Assembly (NCBI GenBank): GCA_029204225.1
Contig: CM055107.1
Span: forward strand, 19,313,815-19,377,814
Direction: 5' to 3'
Length of the DNA stretch: 64,000 bases
From: Diphasiastrum complanatum
Lineage: Eukaryota > Streptophyta > Lycopodiopsida > Lycopodiales > Lycopodiaceae
The notes under the pieces were generated by a model. The model was not told the origin of the DNA. It worked only from the letters and a program-made list of their open reading frames with translations, and made no database searches. The position numbers and the translations under genes were made by a program. Position 1 is the stretch's first letter. Each line of letters opens with the position of its first letter. Of this stretch, positions 6,436 to 62,890 are shown piece after piece.

Positions 6436-6491
<56 letters not shown>
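6392..6491. repeat. Poly(G) run followed by (CT)n microsatellite
   Basis: A run of 21 G at 6392-6412, a 24-base spacer, then uninterrupted (CT)n at 6437-6491. Unlike most CT tracts here it has no LINE 3' end on its left and no LINE on its right, so it looks like an unoccupied site. Confidence 0.85.
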
Positions 6492-12092: not shown

Positions 12093-15000
12093 CTGTCACA
12101 GAACAAGCCACATTAGGTCTTGTATATTTACTTTCTGGTATCACTGTTAAAAATACCAAGAGCTTTATGTTTAAAAAATGAAAAAGCTAGCTCAAGCTTC
12201 ATTTTTCAAAACCTAGGAAGTTACCATACATGTGGTAAACTCATCAATTCAAGAACAGCTTTTTTTGGCGTCAGCTCATTGTCCAGAATTCGAGCAACAG
12301 CAGTCAAAACAGGCATCTGCACTCGGTATTTGCGAGCCAATGCAATGACGGCTCCAGCAGTGGCAACACCCTCAGCAACCTGCAATATTTTGCATAGTAT
12401 GGTAATATGAACTTTTGTCACCTTCATCACCAAAGTTTTTGCAATCTAGCTTTGCAACTTTTCTTTTTTTCCCTGTAAAACAAGAGGGAGATGGTACCTG
12501 ATTCATAGAAGACTGTATACTTTCAAGTGTTTCGCCTGCTCCAAGCCTCACACCGACTGACCTATTTCGGGAAAGCTTTACAAAACAAGTGAGCATGATA
12601 TCCCCTGTACCTGACAGGCCGGCTAATGTAGAAGATTCTGCTCCCATCTGAAATGTGACAGGAGATCAAAGCTGAACCAGAATAACAAGATACAAATACT
12701 CACCATGACTACTTTTGAAGAACAGTTTTAGAAAAAAAAAAGTTTAACAGTAGAAACTAGAAGAAAGGTCCCAAGCAGTAGCTTTGGTAATAGCAAATCC
12801 TAAATTATTGTGAATACATATACAAATAAAACTATCTCAAAAATACTCTAATTTCCCTTAATGCATAGAACCCACGGTTCTCAGAACCGTGGGTCCTGGG
12901 AACCATGGGGTGAACCGTACCACAGTTCATGAACCGTGGTACGGTTCCTATGTTTAGTTAATTAATTAATTAATTAACAAATTTCACACTCACAGACACA
13001 GATTCATTTCACACTGCACAGACACAGATTCATTTCACATTGCACAGACAAAGATTTCACATTTCAAAATTTGGACAGACTTAAATAGTTTGACAGATTT
13101 CACAGACACAAATTTCTCATTTCACAGATTCAATTCACAGACACAGATTTCACAGATTTATATTCACAGATTTCACAAACATAGATTTCACAGACAGAGT
13201 TCACAGATTTCACAAACACACTTTTTTTGGCCTTTTTATGCATAATTTTAGGCTGTTTTGGGGGGTAGGAACAAAAAAAAAAATTAATTAATTAGTAAGG
13301 TTCCTTAATGTATGCAAAAAAAAGAAGATTATCATGAGGAGAAAATGCATGCACCAATGGAGATACTGAATGAGAGCATATAAGTCGTCACAAGAAGGAT
13401 TCCAAAAGCAAAACAATTTTTTTTTTGCAAAGCATAGTACATCAACAGTAAATCATGTTGTAAATGTCTCTCTAATGTAATGGTCAACATGATTCTACTG
13501 TAACACAAATTAGAATAAGCCAATATATTTGAGATAGGTGCAAGAAATAAAAACCATGAAGACGACCTGTTCAAGGCACTCTAATAGCCCAAGAATGCTA
13601 TAAGGAAATGTCGTGCAAAACCTGAACAAGTACGATATCCAAAGCTAGTCGGAGAGATCAATAGTACCATACGACAGAACTTTGCAATATCACCAAAGGC
13701 CAAACAATATGCAGCAACCAAGAATACCATGGAACATCATCACAAAAAGGCTAAGCAATATGCAACAACCAAGACTACCAAGAAACATCATCACAAAATA
13801 TCCTCTCAAGGCCCATAGGTATATACTGGGTATTTAGCCCCTAACTAGTATACCATTAGGTATTAGGCCACTACCATCGAGGGCATGTCCTTATCGGACA
13901 CATGATAGCTTAGGTTCAGTAATCTTATCCTCTGGAAGGCTCCATTTTAGGGCTTCCTTGTGGGTATATGTAGGGCTGATTGCCGTTCATGTCATAGTTG
14001 ATGACATTGATCTCTCTCTTTAGTGACTAGTCTCCTAAAGCATTCTCTTTGCTGCTTTCTAGAGCTAGTTCCTGCGTATGTGTTGCTTTCTTAGCCTAGC
14101 TATTGATCTGAGGTAAATTTGTTTGTAAGTTGGTATCAGAGCACTTTCCTGAGCGATGGGGAGTGCCTTTCTTTCTGAGTGACTCATACGGTACCACCCC
14201 CATGCCCCGCCAAAGACCTGTGACCCTCTTGGTCACCCCGACTACTTGCCGGCTAGCATCTCGTCACTGACTGCTAGGGTCCCGACGGTCAAGAAACACC
14301 GCATCTCTGACAACTTGTCAGGCGGCCACACCGGGTCACTGCTCGTGATGCACCGGTCCCAACTTGGGACTGATGTCCTCCTCGGTCACTGGCCCTTGCC
14401 AATACTTGGCCTCAGGCCCTTAGGTGACCGGCCGTGCCAAGGTCATGATAGAGTCGTAACTGGACTCTAACATAATCCCTTGTTTCTCGATACTTTCATT
14501 TTGCATCATTTTATTTCATTTCCTTTGTTCTGTGATTTTGATTCCATTCTTACAATCCATTATTTTTTCTTTTGGGATCATCCGTTGTCATTATTTTCCA
14601 TTTTTACAATCCCTTAAAAAAAACACAAATTTCCTTTCCTGACGTGCGTTTTAGTTGTTTTTTCCATCTTGATTCTCGTTTACCTTCGCAATTTGAAAAA
14701 GAACAAAAAAACAAAACATGAGTGCTCGCAAGATTGTTTCAGTGATTTTGCAATACTTTTGTTTCGCGTCTCACCTGGGGTTAGACTCCCAGCAGCTGCT
14801 TCTTACTGGCTTCTTTCGGACCCGAACACATGCCGCTGACTCCGACGATGAGATTCCTATCCCTGTGCCACCGCAGAAAAAGCCCAGATGTAGTCGCCAT
14901 TTGCCTCCATCAGGGCCCACTATACACTCCACTCAGCAGACACTTCACACTTACTTTCGCTGATATGTACATATTCTCCACCTGGCCCGGGTTGTGGGCA

Positions 15001-15241
15001 TTGATACTTTTTATGTAGTTCTTTTGTTATACCTAGCCCGGGTTGTGGGCATTGATACTTTTTATGTAGTTCTTTTGTTATACCTGGCCCGAGTTGTGGG
15101 CTTATTTCACTTCTGCTTTCATTTGTAGCTAGTTTATGGCATTTTATGGCCATGTCCTCCTATGGATGATGCTCCCACTGTTGCTTGTACATATTTTCTT
15201 TTTGGTCTTATGCACCCACGGGTGCCCAAAAGATGTTAATA

Positions 15242-15293
<52 letters not shown>

Positions 15294-18200
15294 GCGATGG
15301 CAGCTCTGTCTCCAGCGATGGCTGCCCTATCCTAGACCCTGCCCTGGTCCGCCCTCCACCATGGCCCCTCCTCCTCCTCGCGCCCCTGCTCGTAGATCAG
15401 CACAATCCCCAGCCACCTCCTCACTCACCTCCCTCGCTCACCACTCACCTCCCCTTGCTGCCCCTTCCCCTAACCCCCTCGCTGCTCCTTCTCCTTCCCC
15501 CCTCGCTGCCCCTTCCCTCGCTGCTCCTTCTTCCCCTAACCCCCTCGCTGCTGCTCCTCCTTCGCCTTCCCCCCTCGCTGCTCCATCCCCCCCCCCCTCG
15601 CTGACCTCCCTGATCTCCTAGCTGCATCCCCCTCACCCATCCTTCTCGTTGACCACTCCTTGTCACTTATTGAATGCTTCACAGTTGACACATATTCCTC
15701 GCTGACCCCAAACCCCCCCTCTCATTGCCCCCTCACCTCACCCCCCTCGCTGATCCCTCACCTCACCCATGATATGGGAGTTACCAGGATTTTAGAGGAC
15801 AGCTTGGGACCTACTACCCCTTACGGTGAGCATTTATTGCAGTTTGGAGACGCCCATGAGTTAACCATTTACAATGGCCTAACTTGTTGGCCAAAATCTG
15901 GCAGTTATACTTGTCACCCTGTTACGAGCTCGTGACTAGTGCCGAACCCTAGAGAACACAGATAGGTCAGATACCACAGTCAGGGTCGTGTCCAGCGTAC
16001 ATGACCAACAGGGCAAGACAGTGTGAGTAGTGTGCCCTAGCACGGTCCATAGCCATGGTCGGCCTAACATAGCGTAGGGACTCTGTCAGCAGGATAGGGC
16101 CTCCAGTTGGGTCCCGACGTGCAGTCGGCCACGTCAGTGACACGTGGCCGACACTTGGTAGTCGCATGCTACCAGTCCTCACACTGGGCTAGGAGGGGCT
16201 TACTCTATATCAGGGAGTAGGCACGGTTGGGTGGATCAGTTAGTGTTTGCCCTACTATGATGTTAGGATCTATTACACTGGTATCAGAGCCATCTCCATC
16301 CTAGGGAGTTGAGTAGCAGCAATAGAGAAAGCTATCAGAAGATAGAAAAGATCTCTGAGTTTCTCAGAAGGGTTTTTGGACTTCAGATTTGCTATTTTGT
16401 GGACAAATTGAGATGTTGTCAGACCAGCGAGGGGGGATAGCAAAAGTTTCAGATTTTTTTGCACTTTTTCCAACCTCAAATCAGATTTCTCAGAAACCGC
16501 AGGTCTGAAAGCAGTTGAGGAAGAGCTGAGAAGGGCTTTTCTTGATTCTCTCTGTGGGAGTACAGTTCTCAGAAAGCGCTAAGTTTTCTTCCCTTGTACA
16601 GTTGTAAATTAGTCTTTTAGACTTTTTTTCCTTCAGAAGTTAAGGTACCTCTCTTTCAGTTTCCAAGATGACCACTCCTCAGGGACCTAATCAACCCCTG
16701 GAGAGAGGCTTCGACGAACTTGAAACAGAAGCCTTGGCTTACAGTAAAGGGAAAGAACCTATGGAAATGGAAGAACAGGAACAGTTTGCCGAAGAACTCG
16801 AAGAACTGGTTACCAAGGAGCAGTTTCTCCAGTTGGTAACAGAAGTGGATGAACTGAAGAGCTTGATTTTGAGTTCCGCGAAAGGAAGCCTTCCCTCCAC
16901 TTCTCAGTTGTCCCCTTCTCCACTTCCATTTGTTTCGGGTGAGACTTTACGGTCTCACCCCAGTGTTTTTAAAGATTTAAAGCCTCCTACTTTTAATGGG
17001 GAAGGATAGAAATGCAAATATTCTACAAACCTTCCTCAGCAAATGGAGGAACATTCATGCTCTTAAACAGACCCCTGACCATTTGCAAGCTACTGAGGCC
17101 AGTCTTTCCTTAGGGCCTATGGCCTATAAGTGGTGGTTAAATCTCCAGGAGACTGGGCAGACTCCCCGGTCATGGAAAGGTTTTGAAGAAGCTTTCCTAA
17201 GAGAATTTCTACGAGAAAATGAACTTGATAGAGCCTGGGAAGCCTAGGAAATAACAGTAATGGACAAGTCCCTCATCCAATATATCTCGCAGTATCGAGA
17301 GGCAATTTAAAAGATTAAAAATATGGATGACTATCAAAAAATCAGGGGATTTGTCCGTGGCCTCAAAGATGAATATAAAGTAGAGGTCCAGAGAAACTCG
17401 CCTACTACCCTTGAGCAAGCTCTCAGATATGCTCAAATCTATGATGATTCAGTGGGTAGGAAGAGAGCGAGACAACAACCACTTTCTGAGCAGCTTCCTC
17501 AGAAAGACTTTCAATTTAAAAAGAAATTTTTAAAAAGAAAGAAAGAAGATAAATTTAAAGGTGAAGCTCCTCAGAAACGCCCTTCACTCATACAGCCCTT
17601 AAAACCAGATGATTTTGAGAAAGCCAAACAAGAACGTTTGTGCTTTGTGTGTATGGGCAAGGGACACAAAGTCAGACAGTGTCCCAAGGGGCCTTTCACT
17701 AAAAAAGATAAAAAAGATAAAAAAACAAGTTCATCTTGTTCAGACTGTATGTTTCCCCAGTGACTCGGCAGCTTCCGAGATCAAAGTGTATCATGAAGAT
17801 CATGAACATTGTTGCCAGCTGACCTCTGCAATGCTAGCGAGACCCTTCAGCTTTGGGCCGCATGACCTAGTACGTATGCATGGGAAAGTTGGTAACCACT
17901 CAGTAAGAGTTATGGTTGATGATGGGGCAACCCATAATTTCATCAACTACACCCTGGTTAAAAAGCTTAAACTACCAGAAGTACCTAGTCAGCATAGGTA
18001 CATAGTTTCATTAGCTAAGGGTGAAGATAAAAAAATACGGGAAACTATGGTAAGTAATTTGAATCTTGGTATTCAAGGGTACCAAGATGAAATAAACTTT
18101 CAGATAATGCACCTGGATCGTACAGACATTGTTCTCGGGAGAGATTGGCTCTACAGTTTAGGACCTTCCCTCCACAGAAACTATCAGGAGAACACCCTCA

Positions 18201-21200
18201 GCTTTCAGCATAAAGGCCGAGAGATCCAATTGCATGGGGAGCATGATGTACCCAACAGTCCTATGGTCTGCAATTCAAAGCTCTGTCAGTTAATCGGAGA
18301 TGAAGACCATCAGGTATTCTTATGTGACTTTGAAGTTTCTATTTCCAGTTCTATTCAGCAGAAAATCAGTAAATTAGAAACTTTATTGTCTAAATTTAAA
18401 GATGTTTTTCTTAAAAATTTGCCACATGGTTTACCACCTAGCAGAGAGGTAGATCATGTAATAAACCTAGTACCAGGTACAGCACCTGTTTCTAAAACTC
18501 CGTATCGGGTCAGCCGAACAGAGGATGAAGAAATAACTAGGCGGTTAACAGACTATCTTGGGAAAGGCCAAATTCAGACCAGTAGTTCACCATGGGCCTC
18601 ACCAGTCCTATTGGTGAAAAAGAAAGAGGGGTCTATGCATCTTTGCGTAGATTACAGAGCCCTCAATAAAGTCACAATTAAGAATAAATACCCTATGCCT
18701 CGGGCAGACGAGTTGTTTGACCAACTCGATGGGGCTAATTTTTTCAGTAAAATAGACCTCAGATCGGGATATCATCAAGTCCGTATTAAATCGGAAGATG
18801 TCTCGAAATAGCTTTTAGGACTCGTCACAGTCATTATGAGTTTAAGGTGATGCCATTTGGCTCACAAATGCTCCAGCTACATTTATGACCTTGATGAACA
18901 GTGTCCTCAGACCATACTTGGGTAAGTTTGTAGTCGTATTTTTAGATGACATCCTCGTATACAGCAAAACGAGGAAGGAGCATCTAAAACACCTCAGAAA
19001 GGTGTTTCGACTGCTCAAAAAGCATAAGCTTTATGCTAAACAATCCAAGTCTGAATTCTTCGTTGAAGAAGTAGCATATTTGGGTCACATTATCTCGTCA
19101 GATGGGATTAAGATGGACCCGAATAAGGTTAAAGCCATACTCAGTTGGCTGAGACCTCATAATATTTTAGAACTTCAGATCTTTCTTGGTTTGGCGGGAT
19201 ATTACAGATGATTTGTCAAGGAATATGCTCAGATAGCAGTTCCCATGACAAATCTTCTTAAGGGGACGGGAAAGGAGTACATTTGGGAGTCCGCACAGCA
19301 GGAGAGCTTTGATGCTCTCAAAACAACCTTAGCTACAGCACCAGTTTTAAAGGTCGTCCACCCCAGTCAGCCATTTGTGGTCGAAACAGATGCTAGCGAC
19401 TTTGCAGTTGGTGCTGTGCTAACTCAGAGTGGACGACCAGTTGCGTTCGAGAGTAAAAAACTCGAGCCAGCTCAGACTAGCTACAGTGCCTATGAAAAGG
19501 AACTCTTTTAGGACTTGGAGGCATTATTTGTATGGTGCCAACTTTGAGGTCCTGATAGACCATGAGAGTCTTAGATACCTTTGCAATCAACCTGAGCTTA
19601 GAGGTCGGAAAGCTCGTTGGGCAAAGTTGATGCAAGAGTTTGACATGTCTATCAGATATAGACGTGGAAAATTCAATAGAATAGCAGATGCCCTTAGTAG
19701 AATGCCTATGATAAACGAGCTGAGTTTTACTCAGATTCGTAATGAGTTACTCGAGTCCTTGAGAGGGAAATGCCAGCATGATGCATTCTTCTCTACTATC
19801 TGGAACTCAGTCCAGAGCAGACAGTTACAGACTCCAGAACCAGTTCCCGGGGCTGGTGCCAGTTCATCCAAGAATACGGCAACTTCCATTGAGGATGATA
19901 ATGAGTACGAGTATACGTCGTCAGATGACGTTGAGGATTTTGAGCCTGTATTACACAAGCAAACCCCAGTGGTTGAGGGTCAGTTGACTCAAGGATTCAA
20001 ATGGAAACAGTATTCCATTCAAGATGAGTACTTGCTCTATAGAGATAGAGTATGTGTCCCCAATTCAGAGGATTATAGGCAGCAGGTCCTATATGCATGT
20101 CATGACAATCCTAGTGCGGGACACCCAGGCATACAGAAGACCTATGAGCTTCTTCGTAGGCAATTTTACTGGCCCAGTATGAAAAAGGACGTTCACCAAT
20201 ATGTAACTAGTTGCCAGAAATATCAAGTAAACAAAGCAGAGCGTTTAAAGGCAGGAGGGTTGTTACATCCCTTAGAAATACCAGCTGGTAAATGGGAGAG
20301 TATCTCCATGGATTTTATAGTAGGCTTGCCTAAAACCCAAAGGGGTAATGACGCTATATGGGTCACAGTTGACCGTCTGACCAAAATGGCTCATTTTATT
20401 CCGACCAAAACAACCGTTAGAGCTCCAGAGTTAGCAAGGTTGTTTGTAGACGGGCTATTTAAATTGTACGGTCTACCTTCCGGCATAGTCAGTGACCGGG
20501 ACAGTAAATTACTAGAAATTTTTGAAGGGCAGTATTCCATCATCTCCATACTAAACTTAATATGAGTACCACCAACCATCCACAGACGGACGGTCAAACA
20601 GGGAGGGTAAATCAAGTGCTGGAGGATATGCTTCGTGCATACGTCAGCAAGAAGCAGACTAATTGGGAGGAGTATCTCTCGATATTAGAGTTTGCTTACA
20701 ACAGTACCAAACATTCAGCTATGGGATACAACCCATTTATGTTGATGTATGGTTTTCAGCCACGCTCACCAACAGCTGTAGGGTTTAAACAAGAAAAAGT
20801 TAAAGCAGCCAGAAACTTTTTAGAGGACCTAAACCAGATGATAGAACATGCTAAGCGTAGCATTAGGCAGTCCCAGGATCGAGCCAGACATTATGAGATC
20901 CACACAGACGGGATGTGCAGTTCTCCACTGGTGAGAAAGTCTACTTGAGAGTCCCAGTCGACTCTAAAACCCTCAAATCAGGAGTGTGTGCTAAGTTGTC
21001 TCCAAGGTATTTAAATCTCAGAATTTATCCCTGTTTTTCAGAAGTTTTTCAGGAGTCTGAGTTTCAAACTTGCTTGCTACAGACCAGCGACCTACAGGCT
21101 GAGAGTAAATCGGAGATTTGAGGTGATTTAGAGCTGTAAATTGGACAAATCGGACCGGATAGGTTGCTGTCCAACAAGCGAGGGCAAGGAGTTCAAAAAT

Positions 21201-24200
21201 TCCGGATTTCCTTTTGTAAATTTCCGGTTTTTGTCGGTTTGTTGGAGCCCCACACCTGAAATCAGATCAGTTAGCTACTCAACTCAAGAACCGGGGAATT
21301 TGGTAACATTTTGAAGCTTCAAACTGGCATTTTCCGGGACAGCAGGTCTGAAATCTTGGGCAAAAGAGCTGAGAGGGTTCCTTTTCATTCTTTCTTTGGA
21401 AGTACAGTCCTCAGAAACAGCTAAGTCATCTTTCCTTTCCCTTGTACAGTTGTAAATTAGTCTTTTAGACTTTTTTTCCTTCAGAAGTTAAGGTAGCTCT
21501 CTTTCAGTTCCGAAGATGACCACTCCTCAGGGACCTGATCAACCCCCGGAGAGAGGCTTCGACGAACTTGAAACAGAAGCCTTGGCTTACAGAAAAGGGA
21601 AGGAACCCATGGAAGTAGAAGAACAGGAACAGTTCACCGAAGAACTCGACGAACTGGTTACCAAGGAGCAATTCCTCCAATTGGTAACAGAAGTGGATGA
21701 ACTGAAGTTGGCATTAGCCAATTTCAAGTCCAGTGTGGACGACTCGTTCGCTGAACTCAAAAACTTGATTTTGAGTTCCGCGAAAGGAAGCTTCTCTCCA
21801 CTTCTCAGTTATCCCCTTCTCCACTTCCATCAGTTTCGGGTGAGACTTTACGGTCTCACCCCAGTGTTTTTAAAGACTTAAAACCTCCTACTTTTAATGG
21901 GGAAGAGAAGGATAGAAATGCAGATATTCTACAAACCTTCCTCAGCAAATGGAAGAACATTCATGCTCTTAAACAGACCCCTGACCATTTGCAAGCTATT
22001 GAGGCCAGTCTTTCCTTAGGGCCTATGGCCTATAAGTGGTGGTTAAATCTCCAAGAGACTGGGCAGACTCCCGGGTCATGGAAAGCTTTTGAAGAAGCTT
22101 TCCTAAGAGAATTTCTACCAGAGAATGAACTTGATAGAGCCTGGGAAGCCTGGGAAAGAACAGTAATGGACAAGTCCCTCATCCAATACATCTCGCAGTA
22201 TCGAGAAGCAATTTTAAAGATTAAAAATATGGATGACTATCAGAAAATCATAAGATTTGTCCGTGGCCTCAAAGATGAATATAAAGTAGAGGTCCAGAGA
22301 AACTCGCCTACTACCCTTGAGCAAGCTCTCAGATATGCTCAAATCTATGATGATTCAGTGGGTAGGAAGAGAGCGAGACAACAACCACTTTCTGAGCAGC
22401 TTCCTCAGAAAGACTTTCAATTTAAAAAGAAATTTTTAAAAAGAAAGAAAGAAGATAAATTTAAAGGTGAAGCTCCTCAGAAACGCCCTTCACTCATACA
22501 GCCCTTAAAACCAGATGATTTTGAGAAAGCCAACAAGAACGTTTGTGCTTTGTGTGTATGGGCAAGGGACACACAGTCAGACAGTGTCCTAAGGGGCCTT
22601 TCACTAAAAAAGATAAGAAAGATAAAAAACAAGTTCATCTTGTTCAGACTGTATGTTTCCCCAGTGACTCGGCAGCTTCCGAGATCAAAGTGTATCATGA
22701 AGATCATGAACACTGTTGCCTTAGCCCCGTCGAGTTGATCAAACAACTCGTCTGCCCGAGGCATAGGGTATTTATTCTTAATTGTGACTTTATTGAGGGC
22801 TCTGTAATCTACGCAAAGACGCATAGACCCCTCTTTCTTTTTCACCAGTAGGACTGGTGAGGCCCATGGTGAACTACTGGTCTGAATTTGGCCTTTCCCA
22901 AGATAGTCTGTTAACTGCCTAGTTATTTCTTCACCCTCTGTTCGGCTGACCTGATACGGAGGTTTAGAAACAGGTGCTGTACCTGGTACTAGGTTTATTA
23001 CATGATCTACCTCTCTGCTAGGTGGTAAACCATGCGGTAAATCTTCAGGAAAAACGTCTTTAAATTTAGACAATAAAGTTTCTAATTTACTGATTTTCTG
23101 CTGAATAGAACTGGAAATAGAAACTTCAGGAATAAACTGAAAGTCACATAAGAATACCTGATGATCTTCGTCTCCGATTAGCTGACAGAGCTCTGAACTG
23201 CAGACCATAGGGCTGGTGGGAACATCATGCTCCCCATGCAACTGGATCTCTCGGCCTTTATGCTGAAAGTTGAGGGTGTTCTCCTGATAGTTTCTGTGGA
23301 GGGAAGGTCCTAAACTGTAGAGCCAATCTCTCCCAAGAACAATGTCTGTTTATCTGAAAGTTTATTTCATCTTGGTATCCCTGAATACCAAGATTTAACT
23401 TACTTACCATAGTTTCCCATATTTTTTTTATCTTCACCCTTAGCTAATGAAACTATGTACCTATGCTGACTAGGTACTTCTGGTAGTTTAAGCTTTTTAA
23501 CCAGGGTGTAGTTGATGAAATTATGGGTTGCCCCATCATCAACCATGACTCTTACTGACTGGTTACCAACTTTCCCATGCATACGTACTAGGTCATGCGG
23601 CCCAAAGCTAAAGGATCTCGCTAGCATTGCAGAGGTCAGTAAAATAGACCTCAGATCGAGATATCATCAAGTCCGTATAAAATCGGAAGATGTCTCGAAA
23701 ACAGCTTTTAGGACTCGTCACGATCATTATGAGTTTAAGGTGATGCCATTTGGGCTCACAAATGCTCCAGCTACCTTTATGACCTTGATGAACAGTGTCC
23801 TCAGACCATACTTGGGTAAGTTTGTAGTCGTATTTCTAGATGACATCCTCGTTTACAGCAAAACGAGGAAGGAGCATCTAAAACACCTCAGAAAGGTGTT
23901 TCGACTGCTCAGAAAGCATAAGCTCTATGCTAAACAATCCAAGTGTGAATTCTTCGTTGAAGAAGTAGCATATTTGGGTCACATTATCTCTTCAGATGGG
24001 ATTAAGATGGACCCAAATAAAAATTAAAGCCATACTCAGTTGGCTGAGACCTCACAATATTTTGGAACTTCAGATCTTTCTTGGTCTGGCGGGATATTAC
24101 AGACGATTTGTCAAGGAATATGCTCAGATAGCAGTCCCTATGACAAATCTCCTTAAGGGGAAGGGAAAGGATTCATTTGGGAATCCGCGCAGCAGGAGAG

Positions 24201-26763: not shown

Positions 26764-26815
<52 letters not shown>

Positions 26816-28091: not shown

Positions 28092-28162
<71 letters not shown>

Positions 28163-30338: not shown

Positions 30339-30415
<77 letters not shown>

Positions 30416-32657: not shown

Positions 32658-32723
<66 letters not shown>

Positions 32724-50700: not shown

Positions 50701-53700
50701 AACCTATTGTCTTGTCTATTGCTTGTAGGGCTTTAGTCTATTGCTGTCTTTTATGCTTCATTGATTCAACACCTGAGATTTTGATCATAATTGCCCACAA
50801 AACCAAGATGTTGATAATAGGCATGTGCCTAATATCAATTCACCCATCTAATAGAATAGTCACCCATCTAATAGAATAGAGCAACCATATGTGGCCCAAG
50901 CATATCGCATGGGGCTGAGCACTCTTGTGATAAATGCATGCTCCTATCTCAAATGGCAAGTACGAAGAGCCTCGCGTGTCGGGGCCTCCAAGCGACATCA
51001 CAAGCTGCAACCTCCCTCATCATGTCACGAAAGACAGTGGAGTCCAGCCAACGCAAATGCAAGGTATTCACTGTAAAAAAACTGGCATGTAAGTCTAGTG
51101 GCTTGTCTTATGGTGTGTCCGCTGCCACCCTGTAGGCACTGTGGTCTATCGATATCCGCCCACCCTGTCCTGTGTAGGTGAATGTGGTCGTCGCCTGACT
51201 CTAGTGCGTGTGTGTGCTCCACCCTGTTTTCTCTCCCCAACACCTCCCATAGCTTCCATAGGATTTGTTGCCTCTAGTAAACCTAGTAGGCCCTCCCCCA
51301 GCTGACTCTCTTAATGGAAAAGACTCTCCTATAGATGATGGCCCTGTTGCTACTATTGACGATGGCCGTGATAGGCTTGCCTCTGCCGATGAAGTTCGTG
51401 ATGGCCTTGCTACTGATGGACTACCCTGCTGCTGCTACTACCAGCCCCAGATCATGTGCCAATAGAACCTAGCTACCCACCAATCTGTACCCTGGGCCCA
51501 GTTGCTGCTGCTCCTCCAAATGTACTCAGTAGGTGCTCTCGCTCAAGTGCAGGAACTGCCACACATGGGCAATGCCCATGCTCCACCCATCTGGCCTAGT
51601 CAGATGAAAGACCCCAGATCTTTACATTACTACTTAGAAATCAAAGTTTGGAGGCTTGAAGGTTGTATGTTTCTAACTCGAAGCAATACATCCATAAGCT
51701 TCTGGACACGTATAACATGTTGGATTGTGAATCAACTGCCACTCCTGCAGAGATCAATATTAAGTTTTCAAGTGCCTTGGATCACCCAAAAGTTGATGCT
51801 ACTACATACAAAAGTCTAGTAGAGGGTCTTATCTATGCTACTATAACTAGACCTTATATTTCACATTCAGTTGGAGTAGTGAGCCAATTTATGCAAGACC
51901 CTAGGGAGAGACACTGGAAAGTTGCAAAGAGGACCCTGCGATATCTGAAGGGTACTTACAACTACCATCTCGAATACAATGATGTGCAAGAACAAGTTCT
52001 TAAAGGATGGTGTGATGTTGACTAGGCTTCAAACATTAAATTCAGTCAATATCTTGGAGCAGCAAAAAGCAGCCTACTGTAGGCTGGCTATTCGTTCTAC
52101 TTAGGTTAGAAGCAATATCTTGTAGCAGCAAAAAGCAGCCTACAGTAGCCATATCTTCCACAGAAGCAAAATACAGGGCAGCTCAGTTAGCAACCGGGGA
52201 AGCTATTTGGTTAAGGAAGCTTCTTCAGGAGAATGATGAAAAACAATTTGGTGCATCTATTATAAGTTGCGAAAACGAGAGTGGCATCAAGATTACTAAG
52301 TATCCAATTTTCCATGGTTGAACGAAGCCCATCAAGATTCACTATCATTTTTATCAATAAAAAGTTTTAGCAGGAGAAGTAGAACTTATTTATTGTTCTT
52401 CAAAAGATCAAGTCGCTGACATCTTTACCAAAGGTCTTCCTAAAGAACGATTTCAAAAGTTAAGAGCTTTGTTGTGAGTTAAATGCAATAAATTTGTCAT
52501 CAAGGGAGAATGTTAGAAGCCCTATCTGGAATATTTCCTATTGATGCTAGGTCTACTAAGTAGAGGTGCCACATTGGCACACCCTAAACGGTAGTTAAGA
52601 GTCATTAGAATTTTCACCAATGTCAGGAGCTTCTCTAGAACACGTGTCGTGAACATTCAAAACGTTCTCCAAGTGGAATTGCGGGACCTCATATGGTTAA
52701 TGTCAAATTTATTCAACAAGAGGGCTCTTCACAAGGTTTTAATGACCCAAAGGCCCAATTTTAAGTTTTGGCCAAGTTTGGATGGGACCAAGTCAATTTG
52801 GAAGGGGCCATGACCATTTATCAATCTTTCTATCCTCCAATTTCAACGCCCTACTTCAAGGTGTGTAACTCTCCTACAGACCCATGAATGACTCTTGGAC
52901 TACTTTGTAACTCCCAATGGCTCTTGGCTCTTGGCTCTTGGCTCTTGGCCCTACATGTACTCTACATTCATTTTAGAAAGAGAACTTGCCTCCTTTGAGA
53001 TCCTGCCTTCTTCTATATTAAATGCATGTTAATTGTGAATATTTTTCAGCATATTTCACTTGTATTGCACCCCATACAAATCTAGTGAGCATGGGACTTT
53101 ACAAATCTGAATGCACCACTTCAAAATGCCCCCTCTAGTAGCAAGGTTTTCAAAAGAAAACGATGCAGAATATATACTATAATGATCGCCCAAAGATCAA
53201 GCCTACAAGAACACTCAAAAGGAGACAGTGGAGCCAAACCACCCAACCAAGTAGAACCTAGAGAACAAACCAGTAGCTTCACCCCCCAGCCAAGAGAGGA
53301 GCGAGTTATGATAACTGAAAATTAGAATCCAAATTACTATTGATACTCCACTACATGCATATAGCCGTCAAACACCATGCACCACTCTACAAGTCAAAAA
53401 TTGGAGTGTCTAGGCCCTCTGAAGCTTATTAATTACATTTTTGGCCTAGATTGGAATATCGAGGCGTGACTAATAGTATTGAACACTGGAGTGCTGGATA
53501 TCCACATTGAGGATTATTCTAAATCCTTGACATAGGACGCGGACATAACACAAAGTGTAGAAAAATTATGTACATGTAGCAAAGGAAAACATCAAAAAAA
53601 GGAACTAGTGGCTTTTTACTTCTATTCTTGATTTGATCATGAACCTAAAGAGGCTAGGCAAGACATAAAACAAAAATGGAGGTAGTCAAAGAATTTGCTT

Positions 53701-54461: not shown

Positions 54462-54800
54462 CTGCAAGTACAAGTTAGTTATACAGCATCCAATACATCG
54501 ATACAAAAAGCCAAATGCAACCAACATTTGAACACATAAATAGAACAATCAAAAATAGATTGCTTAAGTTATGACATATACATGTTGTTGACATTAATAA
54601 ATTTCGTTTGACACAAAGCTCTAACTCTAGTTCTAACATTGTAGACCTACAGACATGTCAAGAGTTCAAAGAGCTCATTCTGGCACCAATGCCTAGCCCT
54701 CTTCACAATTTTCTTCACCATGAGAAACAAAGCATGCTTAAAATTTTCACCATGAAGCTCCATGAAGAAGAAGCTTTGTAGTTACAATGTTCATTTTTTA
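54462..54800. other. Intron, nothing recognised
   Basis: Start of the next upstream intron of the host gene. No coding similarity found. Confidence 0.45.
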
Positions 54801-55177
54801 TGCATAGTTCTTTCTTGGAGACGTTTATATACGCTCCCATGGTTACCACATACTTGAGGTGTACTTTTATCTACCCTATATGCCTTTGCGCATGGAAAAG
54901 ACATTAATAAAGCTCCTCCTCCTCTCTCTCTCATGTTGCAACACGCATTACATCTTTCTACAGCATCAGCACAAACATGACATCATGACATGGATACATA
55001 TTATTATGCACACACACTCTCATTTTCACCTTTATCTTAGTTTGTACTAGATGTTTCTTTATTACAGCTTCGGAGACGTTTTATGCGCTCCCATTGTTGC
55101 CACATACTTGACATGTACTTCATTAGTCTTATATGCCTTTTGGCATGGAAAAGACATTAATAAAGCTCTCTCTCTCT
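54801..55177 (+). mobile_element. Two LINE 3' ends head to tail
   Basis: First end: GGAGACGTTTATATACGCTCC (about 54815), hairpin ATGCC-TTTG-CGCAT (54880-54893), GAAAAGACATTAATAAAG, then a short CT tract to about 54940. Second: a 5'-truncated copy starts at 54941 with 3' UTR. It has GGAGACGTTTTATGCGCTCC, hairpin ATGCC-TTTT-GGCAT (55133-55146) and CT (55165-55177). Confidence 0.85.
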
Positions 55178-55678
55178 TATATCAGACAGCAGATTTATCG
55201 AAGCTACATACGCACTATATCGTCACAGCCTAATCCTGATAGGGTCAATATACATTTCTACGGCACACATCTATTACGACTGGATGCTACGGGCATTCCT
55301 ATCCTTCCAGCATATCTTACATAGCCGCTATCTTTTGGTCTGAGATACCGTAAGGGACAACTTCGAGTTCTTCTCACCAGCCTGCTATCGAGACGGGTAG
55401 ATACACGGACACCCCCAGATTGCAGAGGATATGTCAGTTTTGCTCTCTTCGCTCGTAGCTAGTCCCTCCGCAGAGCAGGTGGTTAAGCTCTTGCATTGTA
55501 CCCTCACAAGCGAGTGGTCAAGCTTTGTTACTTCTTCTTAGAGATAGAGAGATAGATATACTAGTTCTTTTCTTTTCTTTAGTAAATAAGTCCGTATGCG
55601 GACAATGCACCTCACGTTTGTACTCTCTTTTGTCTTATGTACCTTTGGGTACCAAAAGACGTTAATAATAATAATTCT

Positions 55679-55737
<59 letters not shown>
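55178..55737 (+). mobile_element. LINE ORF2 C-terminus and 3' end (subfamily B) with (CT)n
   Basis: Starts right after CT at 55178 with IRQQIYRSYIRTI, then VNIHFYGTHLLRLDATGIP. This matches IRQQLYRRY and VKLTFYGTHILRRDCLGLP in the minus-strand LINE. The 3' UTR has a hairpin GTCCG-TATG-CGGAC (55590-55603) and the terminal hairpin GTACC-TTTG-GGTAC (55639-55652). AAAAGACGTTAATAATAATAA and (CT)n (55682-55737) follow. Confidence 0.82.
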
Positions 55738-55742
<5 letters not shown>

Positions 55743-55841
55743 AAAATTCTTAGCAAGTCATTTGGATTGGGAGCCGTCGAAAAGTTCCAGGGTGCAGTTC
55801 CATCTGGCATTGACTCCATCTGGCAGGGCGCAACTCCACCG

Positions 55842-56764
55842 ATGCCTCCACGCAAGCATGGGGGGGGAAACTCCCATGGCTCGCCATCTCGGTCTAGCCC
55901 CAACGATGCAAATAGTAGCTCCAGTGCGAAGAAGGTTGATGTCTCCATCCCTCCTCCCAACTCTGATGTGTGCAGTAGCTCCAACGAACCTGCTCCCAGT
56001 GCGGATATGTGCAGTAGCTCTAGCGCACCTAGCGCTGCTCCACCCTTCATCGCTGCTGTGAAAGACTCCATTTCTGCAGCTCTATCTTCTACAGGACCTG
56101 AGACAGTAACCAGCGCTGGTGCTCCATCTCTGACAAGGCCTACGGATACCTTCTTCGAGGCATCCTCCAATGTTGTTGAGTCAGCTGCCAATTCTATCCT
56201 TGCAGTAAGGTCCTCCTCGAATGCTCCAATTGATGATTTCTACACACCAAGAAGGGCATTTGAGGGATACCTGAAAGCAGAGGTAGATGCCTTACGATCC
56301 TACATTGAACAGTTTACACAGGACTCAAGCTACCTACGGAAAGAAATGGAACAAATGCAGGCTACCATTCAAGCTATGTCCATCGAAAAGGAGGCTATGA
56401 GAGCCCGGATTACCTCGTTGGAGGAGGCAATGAGCAAGCAGAGAGAACTAGCCAACTCTACACTGGAATCTAGCTATCTAAAGACTGAAATGGGCCAAAT
56501 GAAGACCACAATACAAGCTATGGCAACCGAGAAGCAATTGACGACCCGAATCATCTCCTTGGAAGAGGCCTTGAGCAAGAAGGACGAACCAGCCAGCACC
56601 ACCAGCACAAGGATCCAAGAACTGGAGGAACGGATTGAGCAACATAAGGCAGAGACCAAAACATGGGCCTCTCTATTCAAAGAAGGTGGTAAAGAAGTCA
56701 ATAGCGTCATCTCAGCCACCATCTCCGAAGAAGAAATGCAGAAATATAAATCTATGAACCACTA
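55842..56764 (+). pseudogene. LINE ORF1, coiled-coil protein, 3' part missing
   Basis: ATG at 55842 (MPPRKHGGGNSHGSPS). The N-terminus is Ser/Ala/Pro-rich. A long coiled coil follows, with two related heptad blocks: SSYLRKEMEQMQATIQAMS and SSYLKTEMGQMKTTIQAMA, each followed by an RITSLEEA or RIISLEEA segment. ETKTWASLFKEGGKE matches EETKSWATLFKKDSG in the minus-strand ORF1. The frame is open but the RRM-like domain is cut off at about 56764, where an inverted LINE begins. It follows directly on a (CT)n tail at 55737. Confidence 0.8.
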
Positions 56765-59700
56765 CACCCAATGTGCATATCTGGCATATCCGATGCTCTC
56801 TCAAAATGCCTGAATATTTGCCTGTCTCAATAGCAAGCTGATGTGAAGAGACTCGTAGCTGTCCCAATCTGTATCGGAGCCCAAAAGAAAGAGGGAGAGA
56901 GGGATATAAAGGTCTAACAGGGAGTCCCAAACAGTCTCTGCGTAAGATATGTGTGCCATAGAAGGTAAGCTTGACTCTCTCATGGTCAGGACGATCCCAT
57001 ACTATGTGACAATATCTCCGATACAGCTGCTGTCTGATAAATGTATGAGTTCCCTGTGGGAGATCCAGCATCGAGAAGCCCCATGACTGAAAGAAAGCCA
57101 CCACATCACCATACCAAGAAGACCTAGCCTGTTGTCCAGCTATAGTCTGAGAAGAAGTAAGTGCTGCCCTCACGTATCTGTGAGTATCCATGGTCTCAAG
57201 TCGATGTAGAAAGGTAACAATCTGAAACATAGCCTCTACCACCATGGGGAGTGAGGCAAACTCCGCTAAAAGAATCTCATGAGGAACTGACGGCTTCGCA
57301 CGAATCATCCTCCCTAACATGGTGATCTGCAGACGAGTGATGTCTCGCCAAGTACTCTGAGATATCCCTGGGCACCAGACCTCCGCTAAGTGCATAGCCA
57401 CAAGTGAGACTACTGTAGAGAAAAGGTGGTCTCTGGTAGTAGGATCATGAATATGGTAAGTAGTACACACTCTCTCCATATGTACCAAGGCAGCATGCCC
57501 CTTACGCAGGCGATATAGAGCAGTAGAGCGAAAAGTGAGTAAGGGACCAGTGAATAATACACCTAGATAGGTGTATGATGTAACAATCTCCAGCTGTTGT
57601 GCATCATAATAGAAAGCGTCATCTTTCATATGCTGCCGATTTGTGTTAAACACCATAACTTTGGTCTTAGCAATATTCACCGTCAGGCCCCCACTAAGCA
57701 AAAACCATATAGAGCATCAAGATGTCGATGTAATCCAGAGGCTGTAGAAGATATCAATGCCACGTCATCCGCATACAGTAGGATAGGAATAATAACATCA
57801 GCAAGAGGACATCCATCACCCCCCTCCTCGATGATCCGCTCTAGATCATCAATGTACAATGCAAAAAGAGTGGGAGAGAGTGGACATCCCTGCTTGACTC
57901 CAACTGTGCTTTGGATAGAAGGCGACCAGCTGCTGCCATCTCTGAAACGTGCTAAAACCCTCTCATATAAGGCGTTGATAGCCATAATGACATATTGTGA
58001 GAAGCCAGGTGAAGATAAGCGCTGAAGTAGCAGGTGCCGTGGAACTGAGTCAAAGGCCTTGCGGAAATCCACAAAGCAGCAGTATACTCTTTGTCTCCAA
58101 TGTCGAGCCTCCTCTATGATGCAGCGTAGGACAAATGCATGATCAATGGTAGAGTATCCGGGTCTAAAGCCAGCCTGTCCAAGAGCAAATAACTCATCTG
58201 ATTCCGCCTGGGATCCAACCATAGATTGCAGAACTGAGCCATAAAGCTTCGCCATCATGTGACTGATCATGAGAGTGCGATAGTTATCCACGTTCATTGG
58301 ATCACCAGCCTTGAGAATGGGATGGAGAAGGTTCGTGCACCAGTTGGTGGGGAAGCCCGAGGTAACAGCCAAGTTAAAAGTGTGGGCAAAGTAAGGAGAG
58401 AGAAGCTGGGAGACAGGTTTGAGGAAGTCTGTGTTAAGAGAGTCGACGTCCTTCGCTTTATGGGATTGGGCTTTACTAATCGCGAATTCAATTTGGTCAG
58501 AGGTAAAAAGAGAGAATGTAGCGGGTCGTGTGATAGGGATAGGCGGAGCATCTATAGTGTATAAGCAAGTAGCATACTTCACCCAAGAGTCAATATCAAT
58601 AGGTGAAAGTAAGGAAGACTTCTTAGAAAAGATTTTCCAGAAATGAGAGGAGGAAGAGAAAAGGGAGCCTATAAGTTTCTGACCATCTCTTGTTAGAGAG
58701 TCGCTTTTCTTTTTATTAACTACATGATGATATTGCTTTTGTACGAGTACTAAAAGATTAGGAGAGTGAGGCTTATGTAAGGCGTAGCAATCATGGTGAT
58801 CATCGGTTATAGGTTTTTCGATGAGTGGGATATGTCTTAGGGGGAAAGGCCTAGGTGGTGACTTGTATAAGGGAGAGTGACAAGAGGCTGGCATGTTGCT
58901 CAATAAGAGAGGAGAAGGGAAAATCTTGCAAAAGAGAGTTGAGCGCGACTATGTAGCGTGGGATGAAATATGTACGAAAAGAAAAGTGAGGTGTAGTGGT
59001 CTTGGGTCGAATGATTGGAAGGGGAGAGGTCTGGCCAACAGAGAGTAAGAGCAGTAAGTGATCAGCAAGGGTAGGAGAGAGTATAGTAAAGCTCTGAATG
59101 AGAGGAATCAAGGCTGGTGAGCCAATGAAGTAATCCACCACACTATGTCCGCCACTATGTGGATGACAAGTGAATGCTGCTGAATCTGGCCACTGTGATA
59201 AACCGTTCAGAATGACCAAGGAATGTGCCTCGGAAATCCTGAGTAGCTGCTCACCAAATGTAGTAGAAGGGGTAGCCTCATCATGTGATGTCCGCACAAG
59301 ACCTGTATCCAAAGCATGAAGCTGGAGATAATCCGTCATCGCATGAAATTCTGTCTAACCGGTGGCCGTGCGTGCGTTGAAGTCACCTGCCAAAAGTACA
59401 TACCCCTGGGGAGAAAAGATAGAAATATCCTCTGATAAAACCTGAAAAGGGTCCCCACCATAGTCTGCAAATGTCGAACTCTGAGGAGCAATATAACATG
59501 CTGCCAAGAAGATATCTCTAGCCAAGCCTAGGGAATGCCCAACTAATTGTAACCATATAAAACGAGCGTACGGATCTTTCTTAACCAGCTTAACGTATGA
59601 CTATACTGGTCTCTGTATAAGCATGCCACCCCACCTGAGCCTCTGGAGGTCGTCCCTCGTAGGAATGGTCTAAAAACTGAGTGCCAAGAGAAATCTATCA

Positions 59701-59842
59701 TCATAGGAAGAGGACGAAATTGAGATTCATGAGTCTCTGCTAGTAGTAAAATATCTATACGAGCAAGATAGGATTGCAAGTCACCTGCAGTAGAGGAAGA
59801 GTGGAAGCCATTACAATTCCAAAAGCCAATACGAAGCGACAT
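56765..59842 (-). pseudogene. LINE G ORF2: endonuclease and reverse transcriptase, the best copy here
   Basis: Starts SLRIGFWNCNGFHSSST at 59842. Endonuclease motifs are THESQ, LLAGDFNART (about 59390) and YFIGSPALIPL. Stops occur near 59543 and 59357. Reverse transcriptase (58903-57683) has [60 protein letters not shown] and the catalytic LLYADDVALIS. A frameshift near 57695 leads to a long open C-terminal part (57701-56765) with [11 protein letters not shown] and [12 protein letters not shown]. The zinc motif is cut after CQICTLG by the junction at 56765. It copied element RNA at a nicked target; the present copy is dead. Confidence 0.9.
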
Positions 59843-59884
59843 AGGGGATCTCAGGCTGCTCCCATGCCCGAGAGCCCCAAGTCC

Positions 59885-60648
59885 CTATAGTGAGCGCTCA
59901 TAGTATCGTGGTTTGCTGTCAATAAACACCACCCGTTGCCCTTTTTCCTTAGCTTCTTGTATGAAATTTTTCCTTGCTAGCCATTGCGTATGAGTTAAAT
60001 CATCGTCCATAAAAATAAAAGTCCCTTTCAGCTTGGCTCGAAGTTTCAAGGCAGCATTACGATGTACAAGAGACCGGAATTTAATAAATAGAACATTCTC
60101 ATCATACTTGCCTCTCCAAGCAGTTTCAAATCCCTCAGTTGAGTGTGAGAGTTTATTGCAAAGTAAATCCTTGGCTTCCTCAAGAGGTTTTCCAGCATTT
60201 GGGATGCCTCTCACTCTAATATTAAGGGCTTTTTTGGCTCTTTTCTCTTGCTCCGAAAACATACTTTCTGATCTTGAGTCAATTGAAATATTCGTAGGCA
60301 AATGTATTATACCACTATCTTTTTTAAACAATGTTGCCCAAGATTTCGTCTCTTCTACTTGTTTCTCAAGGCTGGAAATCTTGTTAGAAGTTTCTGCAAG
60401 ATCCGTAGTAGATGATGGTAATAGAGTTCGCAGCTGGCTGGTCTCATCTCGCAATTTTTGAACCTCCAATTTGAGTGCTATGTTTTTTGTACCTCTGAAA
60501 ATAGTGCATACAACTGCCCAACATGATAATGAACATCTTCCGGTAGAATAGAGCGAGGAATAGTTGGAGGTGAGACCTTAAATAGCACAAATGGAGGAGG
60601 AGTAGAAGGATTAGGAGGGAGAGCTGAGGGAGGCGTAGCTGGTTCCAT
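59885..60648 (-). pseudogene. LINE G ORF1: coiled coil plus RRM-like RNA-binding domain
   Basis: ATG at 60648 (MEPATPPSALPPNPSTPPPF). A one-base frameshift in an A run near 60480 leads to an open frame of about 194 codons. It has coiled coil (SNKISSLEKQVEETKSWATL), then LNIRVRGIPNAGKPLEEAK, VLFIKFRSLVHRNAALKLRA and FIFMDDDLTHTQWLARKNF. This is the layout of L1-type ORF1p: coiled coil, RRM-like fold, C-terminal domain with DDDLT. It lies 42 bases before ORF2, in order ORF1-ORF2. Confidence 0.85.
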
Positions 60649-61170
60649 ATCCAAGCAGGGACAAGGCTAGGTATGACAAGGAAGGGCCAACCCGTCAGAG
60701 CTTTGGAGCTGCTCCTGATGGTTCTTCCTCTAATTCTGAGCAATTACTCCTTCACTTTCACCTGTTCATCACTCAGCTGCAGCAACGCTTCTCTGACATC
60801 GCATTCCACAGAAGAGGATCCGGGCTTCAAGACATGGATCCGCAATCCTGGATCGTAAGCAAATGCAAGTTTACTTCCGTGATTGCCCTTCTAAGCAATA
60901 TCTGAGCGTTGGCTTTCAACTAGTTCTTACTGTGTGAGCATCACGTCATTGCTGCTCCCATCGATGAGAGAGAGAGAGTGCTCCACGATCCAAGTGTGAG
61001 GTCCACTCCAGGTGTGAGGGAGAGAGAGAGAGAGAGGTCCGCTCCAAGATAGAGGTCCGTTCCAGGACAGAGATCCGCCCCTCAGAGATCGCTCCTCAAA
61101 GATCCGTTCCAAGACAGAATTCGCTCCATTGTCCACTCAAAGATCCGTTCTAGGACAGAGATCCGCCCCT

Positions 61171-61175
<5 letters not shown>
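60649..61175 (-). mobile_element. Leader of LINE G
   Basis: 5' region with (GA)n at 60965-60978 and 61018-61036. Repeated words such as GATCCGTTC(C/T)A-GACAGA and AGAGATCCGCCCCTCAGAG occur near 61080 and 61155. Confidence 0.55.
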
Positions 61176-61220
<45 letters not shown>

Positions 61221-61610
61221 CAGAGAGACAGAGAGAAAATGGTGTGATTTTGTGTGTGTGTGTGAGTGATTGTGTGATATTGTGTGTGTGTGCACTGTGT
61301 GTGTGTCTTTTGATGTGTACAGTGTGTGTGTGAGTGAATCAGTGATTGTGCGTGAGAGAGAGTGTGTGTGTGATATTATGATATTGTGTGTGTGTGTGTG
61401 TGTGACATGTGTGCATTGTGTGTGTGTGTGTGTGTGTGTGTGAGTTTTGAGATGTGTGCACACTGCACTATGAGTTTGTGTGAGGCTTGAGCACTGAGAT
61501 TGTGTGTGTGTGCACTGTGTGTGTGTTTGTGTGTGTCAGTGTGTGTGCACTCAGCACTGTGTGTGATATTTTGTGTGTGTGTGACATTGTGTGCACTGTG
61601 TGTGTTGAAT
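61176..61610. repeat. Large compound (GT)n/(GA)n microsatellite
   Basis: About 430 bases of GT runs with GA (61203-61236) and short interruptions such as GTGCACTGTG. His-Thr reading frames on the minus strand are a by-product. Confidence 0.92.
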
Positions 61611-61777
61611 CTTGATGGGGTTCAATGTGGGGCCTGGGCAGTGCGCATTGTGAGGGGTGTGGGACCTGCTACTTAGTTAGAAGTTAGAACTTAGAACTTG
61701 GAAGTTAGGAGTTAGTGACTAGTCCGAGTTAGTAGTTACTAGTTACTAGAGTCTAGTTAGAACTTAGAGAGATCTAT
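61611..61777. repeat. Linker with TTAGAAGTTAGAACTTAGA repeats
   Basis: Short repeats of GTTAGAACTTAG and AGTTACTAG near 61675-61770. Probably the far 5' leader of LINE G, since the LINE F tail abuts it. Confidence 0.45.
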
Positions 61778-61803
61778 GAGAGAGAGAGAGAGAAAGAAAG
61801 AAA
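61778..61803 (-). repeat. (CT)n tail of LINE F (minus strand)
   Basis: GA run and GAAAGAAAGAAAG on the plus strand, that is CTTTC then (CT)n on the minus strand. Compare the TTTC-then-CT tail at 32649. Confidence 0.88.
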
Positions 61804-62890
61804 GCTTTATTAATGTCTTTTCCATGCCAAAAGGCATATAAGACTAGTAAATGTACATGTCAAGTGTGTGGTAACCATAGGAGCGTATGAAACGTCTCCA
61901 AAACAGTAACAACAGTAGCAATCTAGAGCTAAAGCTATAAACTGAAATAGATGTGATGCTATAAGAAACATGTGGGAGCATGTATACTGCTAACAGTCAT
62001 GAGTGAGGTATGACGCTATCATCTAGTCCTGTCCTGCTGGTGCTGATGCTATAGAAGGATGTAATACGGCCTGCGGCATGAGGGGCCACTGGTGGTCTCT
62101 AACATCATCTAAGAGGATGAAGAGGTCTCCTCGTGATAGGTCGAGTAGCTCGTGCTGCAACATGGGTATGTGTGGCACGTTGTCTCTGGTCTCTGTGGGC
62201 AAGTAGGTCATCATCATCATCATCGTCACCATCATCAAAATGTCCTCTCCTCTTGGAGAAGAAAGAAGTGATCTGAGGCTGAGAAACCTGACTCGGCTGG
62301 GCTGTCTGATACAAATCCTGTCGTAGTATAAACATCTCTCGTATCATGAGTGCCGCGCATCGAGAATCCTCATAAGCTCTGAGCGATCGTAAGGTGACAG
62401 GTGTGTCTCGGAACAAACAGTGGTATCTCCCTCTGATCTCGTAATATACCGGGCACCTAAAGATAAAGTGCTCCTCTGACTCCACCTCCTCTAAAGAGCA
62501 TAACTGGCAAATCCACTCCTCTCTCGGGGTACCCTGGAATCTACCAGTCTCAATAGCCAACTGACGTGATGATACGCGGAGCTGTCCCAATGTAAATCTA
62601 AGGCAATGTGATAGTCTCGAGTCCAAATAATGCGGTAAGACCGGGAACCCTGCTATGTCAAGCTCAATAAAATGAGTCCAGTAGTAGCCGGGTTTAACCC
62701 CAAGCTGTCGCCCCCAAGTACGGTCGAGATATGCCCGATATAAGATGCGCCTGATATACTGATGAGTACCTGAGGGGAGCTCTGTAATGGAGATACCAAA
62801 TGACTCAAGGAGGAAATGGGATGCCTAAGAGAACCACGATAGTCGATAACCCTGGTCATGAAGAAAGTGCGAGGAGACAAGTGATGATTT
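61804..62890 (-). pseudogene. LINE F: ORF2 C-terminus and 3' end
   Basis: Minus strand. The frame 62626-62105 encodes [40 protein letters not shown] and the tail QPQITSFFSKRRGHFDDG. The 3' UTR includes GGAGACGTTTCATACGCTC (about 61880). The terminal hairpin ATGCC-TTTT-GGCAT (61837-61824) is followed by GAAAAGACATTAATAAAG. The 5' side is interrupted near 62890 by the Copia LTR. Confidence 0.88.

Follow-up and report, generated by a model that had tools for sequence, protein, structure and literature searches.

Waldo is a microsatellite-specific LINE of insects, and R1 possesses an AP-type endonuclease. The closest described systems share one or another feature with the locus analyzed here. Mino is described as inserting into AC repeats (PMC3124438); the insect precedent that a sequence-only reading of this DNA had invoked is apt. 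Tandem R1 elements in Drosophila rDNA appear, in a published account, to have arisen when new elements entered the target duplication found at the 5′ end of copies already in place (PMC2718515). The Togen elements of fish are reported to be (TG)n-specific and some HERO families to target microsatellites (PMC4640811). The Zepp and Zepp-like LINEs of green algae are described as building arrays when new copies land in older ones (PMC8226300, PMC3446292). The principle has precedents among animals, and the plant case seems to be new: our literature search, conducted mostly outside subscription papers, found no plant LINE targeting a microsatellite, in line with the sequence-only reading, which knew of no such example.

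That reading concerned a stretch of 64,000 nucleotides of the lycopod Diphasiastrum complanatum (hereafter, the window), in which it recognized a LINE family that appeared to insert into CT/GA microsatellites and into the tails of its own copies. The data presented below are best explained by a plant LINE that targets CT tracts, its own tails included, and we assign this explanation a probability of roughly 0.7.

Element identity and relatives

The window element is an AP-endonuclease LINE (non-LTR retrotransposon). A domain search of the window yielded, on the minus strand of LINE G, an Exo_endo_phos match (59546-59884, 1.5e-6) and an RVT_1 match (57686-58903, 1.7e-22), that is, the order of AP-like endonuclease and then RVT_1 by which such LINEs are defined; in a relative (P0015) both lie within one protein. 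In copy H the C-terminal domain matched zf-RVT weakly (E 0.02; 16 bits, the cut-off being 27.5). The RT protein search matched 915 proteins, and the identities given here are from the 120 of these that were listed. Among the matches listed, the named relatives with the highest scores come from the fern Adiantum nelumboides (33-55% identity; 45% for the top hit), and one named relative comes from a 1.1-kb contig assigned to the Enterobacter cloacae complex, probably a case of contamination. Three RT relatives among the matches listed (P0020, P0047 and P0066) contain a PHD finger (PF00628) within the same predicted protein. Scans of viral and prokaryote contigs turned up no relative. Compared with solved structures by pairwise score rather than in a clade tree, P0015 reached 75.7 bits with an R2 protein and 54.6 with L1.

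Copies and junctions in the window

The features of the window are collected in Table 1. According to the sequence-only reading, the base next to a CT run belongs to another copy of the family at eight junctions. We inspected all eight base by base and found a CT-rich tract at each of them. Pure CT tracts of the plus strand occupy 15245-15292, 30343-30413, 32662-32719, 55166-55177 and 55682-55737, pure tracts reading as GA (CT of the minus strand) occupy 26766-26811 and 61778-61793, and the tract that ends at 54940 is compound, CTCCTCCTCCTCTCTCTCTC. Seven of the eight junctions have an unambiguous LINE 3′ end ahead of the tract, shortened in one case (32637); the 3′ end upstream of the tract at 26766 has diverged and is weakly identified. 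LINE sequence, recognized via DNA self-matches or ORF1 homology, follows the tract directly or further inside the copy at seven junctions as well (15293, 30414, 32720, 54941, 55178, 55738 and, on the minus strand, 26765). As had been claimed, base reading and self-matches show downstream copies that start at the leader (15293 and 32720, where the first few hundred bases are known as LINE only from EN or RT further in) or are 5′-truncated (30414, 54941 and 55178). The claim that LINE A has CT on both sides and no LINE to its left (tract 28094-28160) was likewise confirmed.

The remaining junction is that at 61778, where the next 540 bp from 61777 on the minus strand are CA-rich. This stretch, which is present also in locus L046 of the genome sample described below, may belong to LINE G as its leader or form a distinct unit flanked by CT. 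Homology of the G leader to locus L031 begins near 61170, and the start of LINE G is given as 61777 or ~61170 because L046 has the 540 bp in between. In L046 (2041-2922, minus strand) a 245-bp CT tract is followed, at most ~20 bp past its end, by the CA-rich stretch in common with window positions 61237-61777 and then by (CT)61; LINE sequence was recognized on neither side of this unit, which is perhaps a short non-autonomous element with the same target.

Several other arrangements were observed in the window. At 56758/56759 copies D4 (plus strand) and G (minus strand) meet head-on, each without its 3′ part, as if two converging arrays had been fused by deletion or inversion; twin priming of a single element was ruled out because both copies carry a 5′ part of their own. 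LINE T2 is interrupted by a Gypsy-like element (15920-26100, labeled by eye), of which a partial second copy is present in inverted orientation (17819-18738 vs 22721-23639, 93% identical). A pure (CT)27 tract at 6437-6491 has no adjoining LINE in the self-comparison and is a possible unoccupied target. At 50440-50755 a 158-bp unit, related to 44351-44813, occurs twice in tandem (97% alike).

Table 1. LINE copies and associated CT tracts in the window.
Feature	Position	Strand	Remark
LINE T1, 3′ part; hairpin GCACCC/GGGTGC, AATAAAG, (CT)24 tail	14771-15292	+	left edge not CT; L035/L037 homology from 14771
LINE T2; leader directly after T1 tail, then endonuclease sequence; interrupted by Gypsy-like element (label by eye)	15293-15919	+	
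LINE E2; 5′ leader and ORF1 directly after E tail	25900-26765	-	ORF1 89% identical over 74 aa to L049, stops as X
3′ end E; diverged, LINE-like, (CT)23 tail, identity weak	26766-26846	-	
(TC)33 tract, no LINE to left	28094-28160	+	
LINE A; 5′-truncated in endonuclease, (CT)35 tail	28161-30413	+	
LINE B; 5′-truncated in RT, directly after A tail, (CTTT)n(CT)n tail	30414-32719	+	
LINE C; leader directly after B tail, internal deletion, RT from ~33326, without 3′ end	32720-33970	+	
LINE D1, 3′ fragment; compound CT tail	54776-54940	+	left edge not CT
LINE D2, 3′ fragment; directly after D1 tail, (CT)6 tail	54941-55177	+	
LINE D3′ fragment; directly after D2 tail, hairpin GTACC/GGTAC, (TC)28 tail	55178-55737	+	
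LINE D4; leader and ORF1 directly after D3′ tail	55738-56758	+	ORF1 matches L039 at 40% identity (95 aa)
LINE G; 5′ leader (start 61777 or ~61170), ORF1, AP endonuclease, RT in two overlapping ORFs; without 3′ end	56759-61777	-	
LINE H; 5′-truncated, hairpin, AATAAAG, (CTTT)n(CT)8 tail	61778-62890	-	left edge not CT

Left and right edges in the genome

The host genome (1,744,706,496 bases, or 1.74 Gb, in 5,176 contigs) was sampled using 126 bp of copy D1 as query (40 best scored of 1,416 candidates), and 30 loci were extracted with 1.5 kb on each side; 20 of the 30 were also extended ~8.4 kb upstream. Left edges were located by protein domains, starts of shared homology and direct reading. Subtracting the window itself (L001), two near-identical duplicates (L003/L004 and L005/L006, one of each pair kept in the tallies) and six loci without a determinable left edge (L024, L025, L026, L027, L041 and L032, the last because of N bases) leaves 21 readable copies.

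The left edge lies at a CT or CTTT tract, each time in LINE orientation, in 13 of the 21. Eight of these edges come after the tail of another LINE (L035, L039, L040, L042, L043, L046, L047 and L049) and five after non-LINE DNA (L029, L033, L037, L038 and L044). The tract is a short CTTT tail in L042 and L043; an 18-bp AC run separates CT tract and LINE in L039; and in L035, L046 and L049 the first tens of bases past the tract were counted as LINE because LINE homology begins slightly further in. The other eight left edges are not CT (L028, L030, L031, L034, L036, L045, L048 and L050). This group includes L034, scored so despite a 17-bp CT tract ~90 bp upstream, and L045 (exact edge not located), which has no CT tract of at least 12 bp upstream within the locus; no target-site duplication was seen by eye at L048 and L050. 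A repeat on both sides in fixed orientation, the hallmark of a microsatellite-targeting LINE, is found for the majority only, because these eight edges fail.

Pure CT stands directly at the edge in 10 of the 21 readable copies. With every CT tract of 12 bp or more in the 262,849 sampled bases counted (49 in total), the chance baseline is 0.0011 per random edge, which the observed fraction exceeds ~400-fold (p 1e-24); chance adjacency of CT tracts and LINE edges was rejected at this value.

On the other side of the element, 10 of the 20 larger regions have a similarly oriented LINE after the tail (L031, L032, L036, L037, L038, L042, L043, L045, L047 and L049); in L031, L032, L042 and L045 the leader found after the tail was judged to be LINE because ORF1 comes next. 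Arrays occur on nine contigs among the loci extracted and mix subfamilies, with array neighbors differing by hairpin at L035 and L047 and by tail shape at L049. The arrangement seen in the window is real and was confirmed outside it as well. At L040 (~3160) and L046 (~6038) LINE fragments of the same orientation adjoin with neither tail nor CT tract between them. The left end of the L040 array was not found in L051, a locus meant to reach it.

Unoccupied CT tracts

The sequence-only reading had looked to empty orthologous sites with (CT)n and no LINE. Two CT tracts of this kind were found, both at paralogous rather than orthologous sites, and the comparison covers the right flank of the LINE array only. 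The DNA flanking the L041 LINE on the right has a counterpart in L031 (82.5% identity across 292 bp). On the reverse strand of L031 this counterpart is preceded by a (CT)28 tract, with LINE sequence recognized on neither side of the tract; the C-terminal peptides encoded at the shared flank match as well (E 1e-13). The gene flanking the LINE in L029 was considered as a third member of this repeat and left out because BLASTP gave only E 0.03. The other site is in L040, where the LINE tail is followed by a 123-bp right flank that occurs a second time at 93.5% identity, with plain (CT)20 ahead of the second copy.

Along the LINE, this post-tail DNA of L040 (8468-8756) is a tandem duplication of the 123-bp unit with a CT tract between, and a shorter duplication of the same kind occurs in L041 (8450-8540). 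These could represent insertion of a tail alone, accompanied by a long duplication of the target, or a tandem repeat of older date.

The 3′ terminus

The LINE 3′ end comprises a conserved hairpin, AATAAAG and a pyrimidine tail, the order after the hairpin being AAGAC, ATTAATAAAG and tail. A pyrimidine stretch of at least 11 bases follows the hairpin in 30 of 30 sampled copies of one 3′-end subfamily (the window copy and two duplicates included), which upholds the claim that the copies end in a (CT)n-type tail. In many of the 30 copies the tail has a fixed internal order, (CTT)n or (CTTT)n proximal to the LINE and (CT)n outside; this outer CT may correspond to the target's other half.

The 3′-end pattern gave 41 matches, 39 of which are LINE ends, 30 of them distinct. 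The hairpin was aligned for 26 of the 30, omitting window copy A, L032 at 9857 and L038 at 8725 (broken or shifted stems) as well as one consensus-like row. In these 26 copies 93.1% of the cells of two stacked helices are paired, a percentage biased high because of these omissions, and 13 cells are changed on both sides, at 3 of the 10 pairs. None of 500 shuffles matched the 93.1% pairing, the 13 double-changed cells or the covariation score. There was no excess over shuffles in the number of pairs with a double change (reached by 238 of 500) or in the number of pair types (reached by 497 of 500). Slid versions of the hairpin are 33-59% paired, and a slide of +2 has 8 pair types vs 7. The sequence thus aligned would place the element among LINEs of the stringent type, with a conserved 3′ stem-loop ahead of a repeat tail; a 3′ stem-loop of this type is described for a plant L1 lineage (PMC3747384).

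Relative ages of neighbors and alternative explanations

To date array neighbors relative to each other, decay was counted as stops plus frame changes in non-overlapping protein matches for six tail-joined pairs (upstream, then downstream copy). The counts were 7/403 vs 3/410 for A and B of the window (p 0.22), 0/239 vs 0/764 for H and G, 5/347 vs 7/981 in L042 (p 0.32) and 1/114 vs 5/375 for copies 2 and 3 of L046 (p 1). The downstream copy was the older one in L040 (b and c, 3/661 vs 8/362, p 0.021) and in L039 (copies 3 and 4, 2/1154 vs 2/111, p 0.041). Overall, two of the six pairs differ at p<0.05 uncorrected and none after correction for six tests; neighbors without a tail between them (L040 a and b, p 0.42; L046 copies 1 and 2) showed no difference in decay. 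The counts are few, and they constitute neither proof of separate events nor support for a younger downstream copy. The two nominally different pairs run against the expectation that tail insertion leaves the downstream copy younger; a possible explanation for these is that a newcomer entered the CT tract to the left of an older copy.

Given such a weak age test (two nominal differences in six, with the downstream copy older), template jumping may hold for the arrays. Here the reverse transcriptase would jump between RNAs onto the CU tail in the course of one insertion, so that neighbors are co-inserted, and the CT on the left would perhaps come from a second RNA. End-to-end jumping has been reported for the R2 enzyme (PMC2718515), the arrays are head-to-tail with tail-to-start junctions, and four of the six tail-joined pairs show no difference in decay. 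We nevertheless regard template jumping as an unlikely account, since window copy A and five sampled copies carry CT on the left but no LINE farther out, CT is present at two paralogous sites without a LINE, two pairs are nominally unequal in decay, and some neighbors belong to different subfamilies (although a jump between the RNAs of two subfamilies is possible). A LINE with little target specificity appears quite improbable. Such an element would insert anywhere, the only CT being that of its tail, and arrays would arise later via recombination between dispersed CT tracts or from fragile or open microsatellites. The eight non-CT left edges fit this explanation, and microsatellites have been proposed as landing pads for plant transposable elements (PMC12477314). 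On the other hand, it is at odds with the 13 of 21 left edges at CT or CTTT in LINE orientation, far above chance, with CT on both sides of solo copies and, again, with CT at the two paralogous sites.

Targeting of CT tracts together with landing in the element's own tails is favored by window copy A and the five sampled solo copies, where left CT occurs without an upstream LINE. Counted against it are the eight non-CT left edges, the paralogous nature of the empty sites and the fact that the left edge of L041 itself was not reached, together with the outcome of the decay counts, the two covariation measures that show no excess over shuffles and the restriction of the sample to the best matches of a single query. 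Insertion into CT/GA microsatellites, as originally proposed, is supported by the 13 CT or CTTT edges (five without an upstream LINE), the pyrimidine tail of 30 of 30 copies and the two empty sites but not by the remaining eight edges, and the original interpretation as a whole is partly supported. Family members lying mostly in non-CT flanks with ordinary target-site duplications, or neighbors always of equal age, had been named as evidence to the contrary; neither pattern was observed.

Proposed mechanism and comparison with known systems

In the proposed mechanism, a group of related AP-endonuclease LINEs would target (CT)n/(GA)n microsatellites with an RNA terminating in the hairpin, AAUAAAG and a (CUU)n/(CUUU)n/(CU)n tail. 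The endonuclease would nick the GA strand inside a CT/GA tract, and the GA 3′ end would anneal to the CU tail of the RNA. The reverse transcriptase, probably recognizing the hairpin, would then copy the RNA, often incompletely, and the new copy would end up between the two halves of the tract. Existing copies would thereby turn into targets, and arrays would grow head to tail because each insertion leaves a fresh CT tract. The fuller proposition, namely a plant LINE lineage that has an endonuclease putatively specific for (GA)n/(CT)n, carries its target sequence as its own tail, makes a new landing site with every insertion and comprises several subfamilies that extend shared arrays genome-wide, seems to us somewhat better than an even bet. 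If this holds, a target-specific LINE using a dinucleotide repeat that is renewed with every insertion exists in a vascular plant. This would explain why head-to-tail LINE fragments, and CT tracts, cluster in genomes of this sort, with long CT tracts beside LINEs being insertion footprints, and would provide an AP endonuclease whose microsatellite preference is directly testable.

Among known systems, Kibi (a 2004 paper) is reportedly a (TC)n-specific LINE; its dinucleotide target would be the same, its host being a fish. With the R1-clade LINEs (Mino and tandem R1), as far as these are described in the sources cited above, the element has in common a repeat target and the logic of a renewed target; unlike them, it resides in a plant rather than an animal host, has another target and would renew that target by its own tail. 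Togen and some HERO families, in the account cited, are likewise LINEs with a microsatellite target, but theirs is a restriction-like endonuclease, whereas the window LINE has an AP-type endonuclease domain. Zepp, as described, resembles it in forming nested, mostly 5′-truncated tandem arrays from insertion into existing copies. In contrast to the single cluster per chromosome, at probable centromeres, that is described for Zepp, the arrays here were seen on nine contigs among the loci extracted, and single copies also occupy CT tracts without any upstream LINE.
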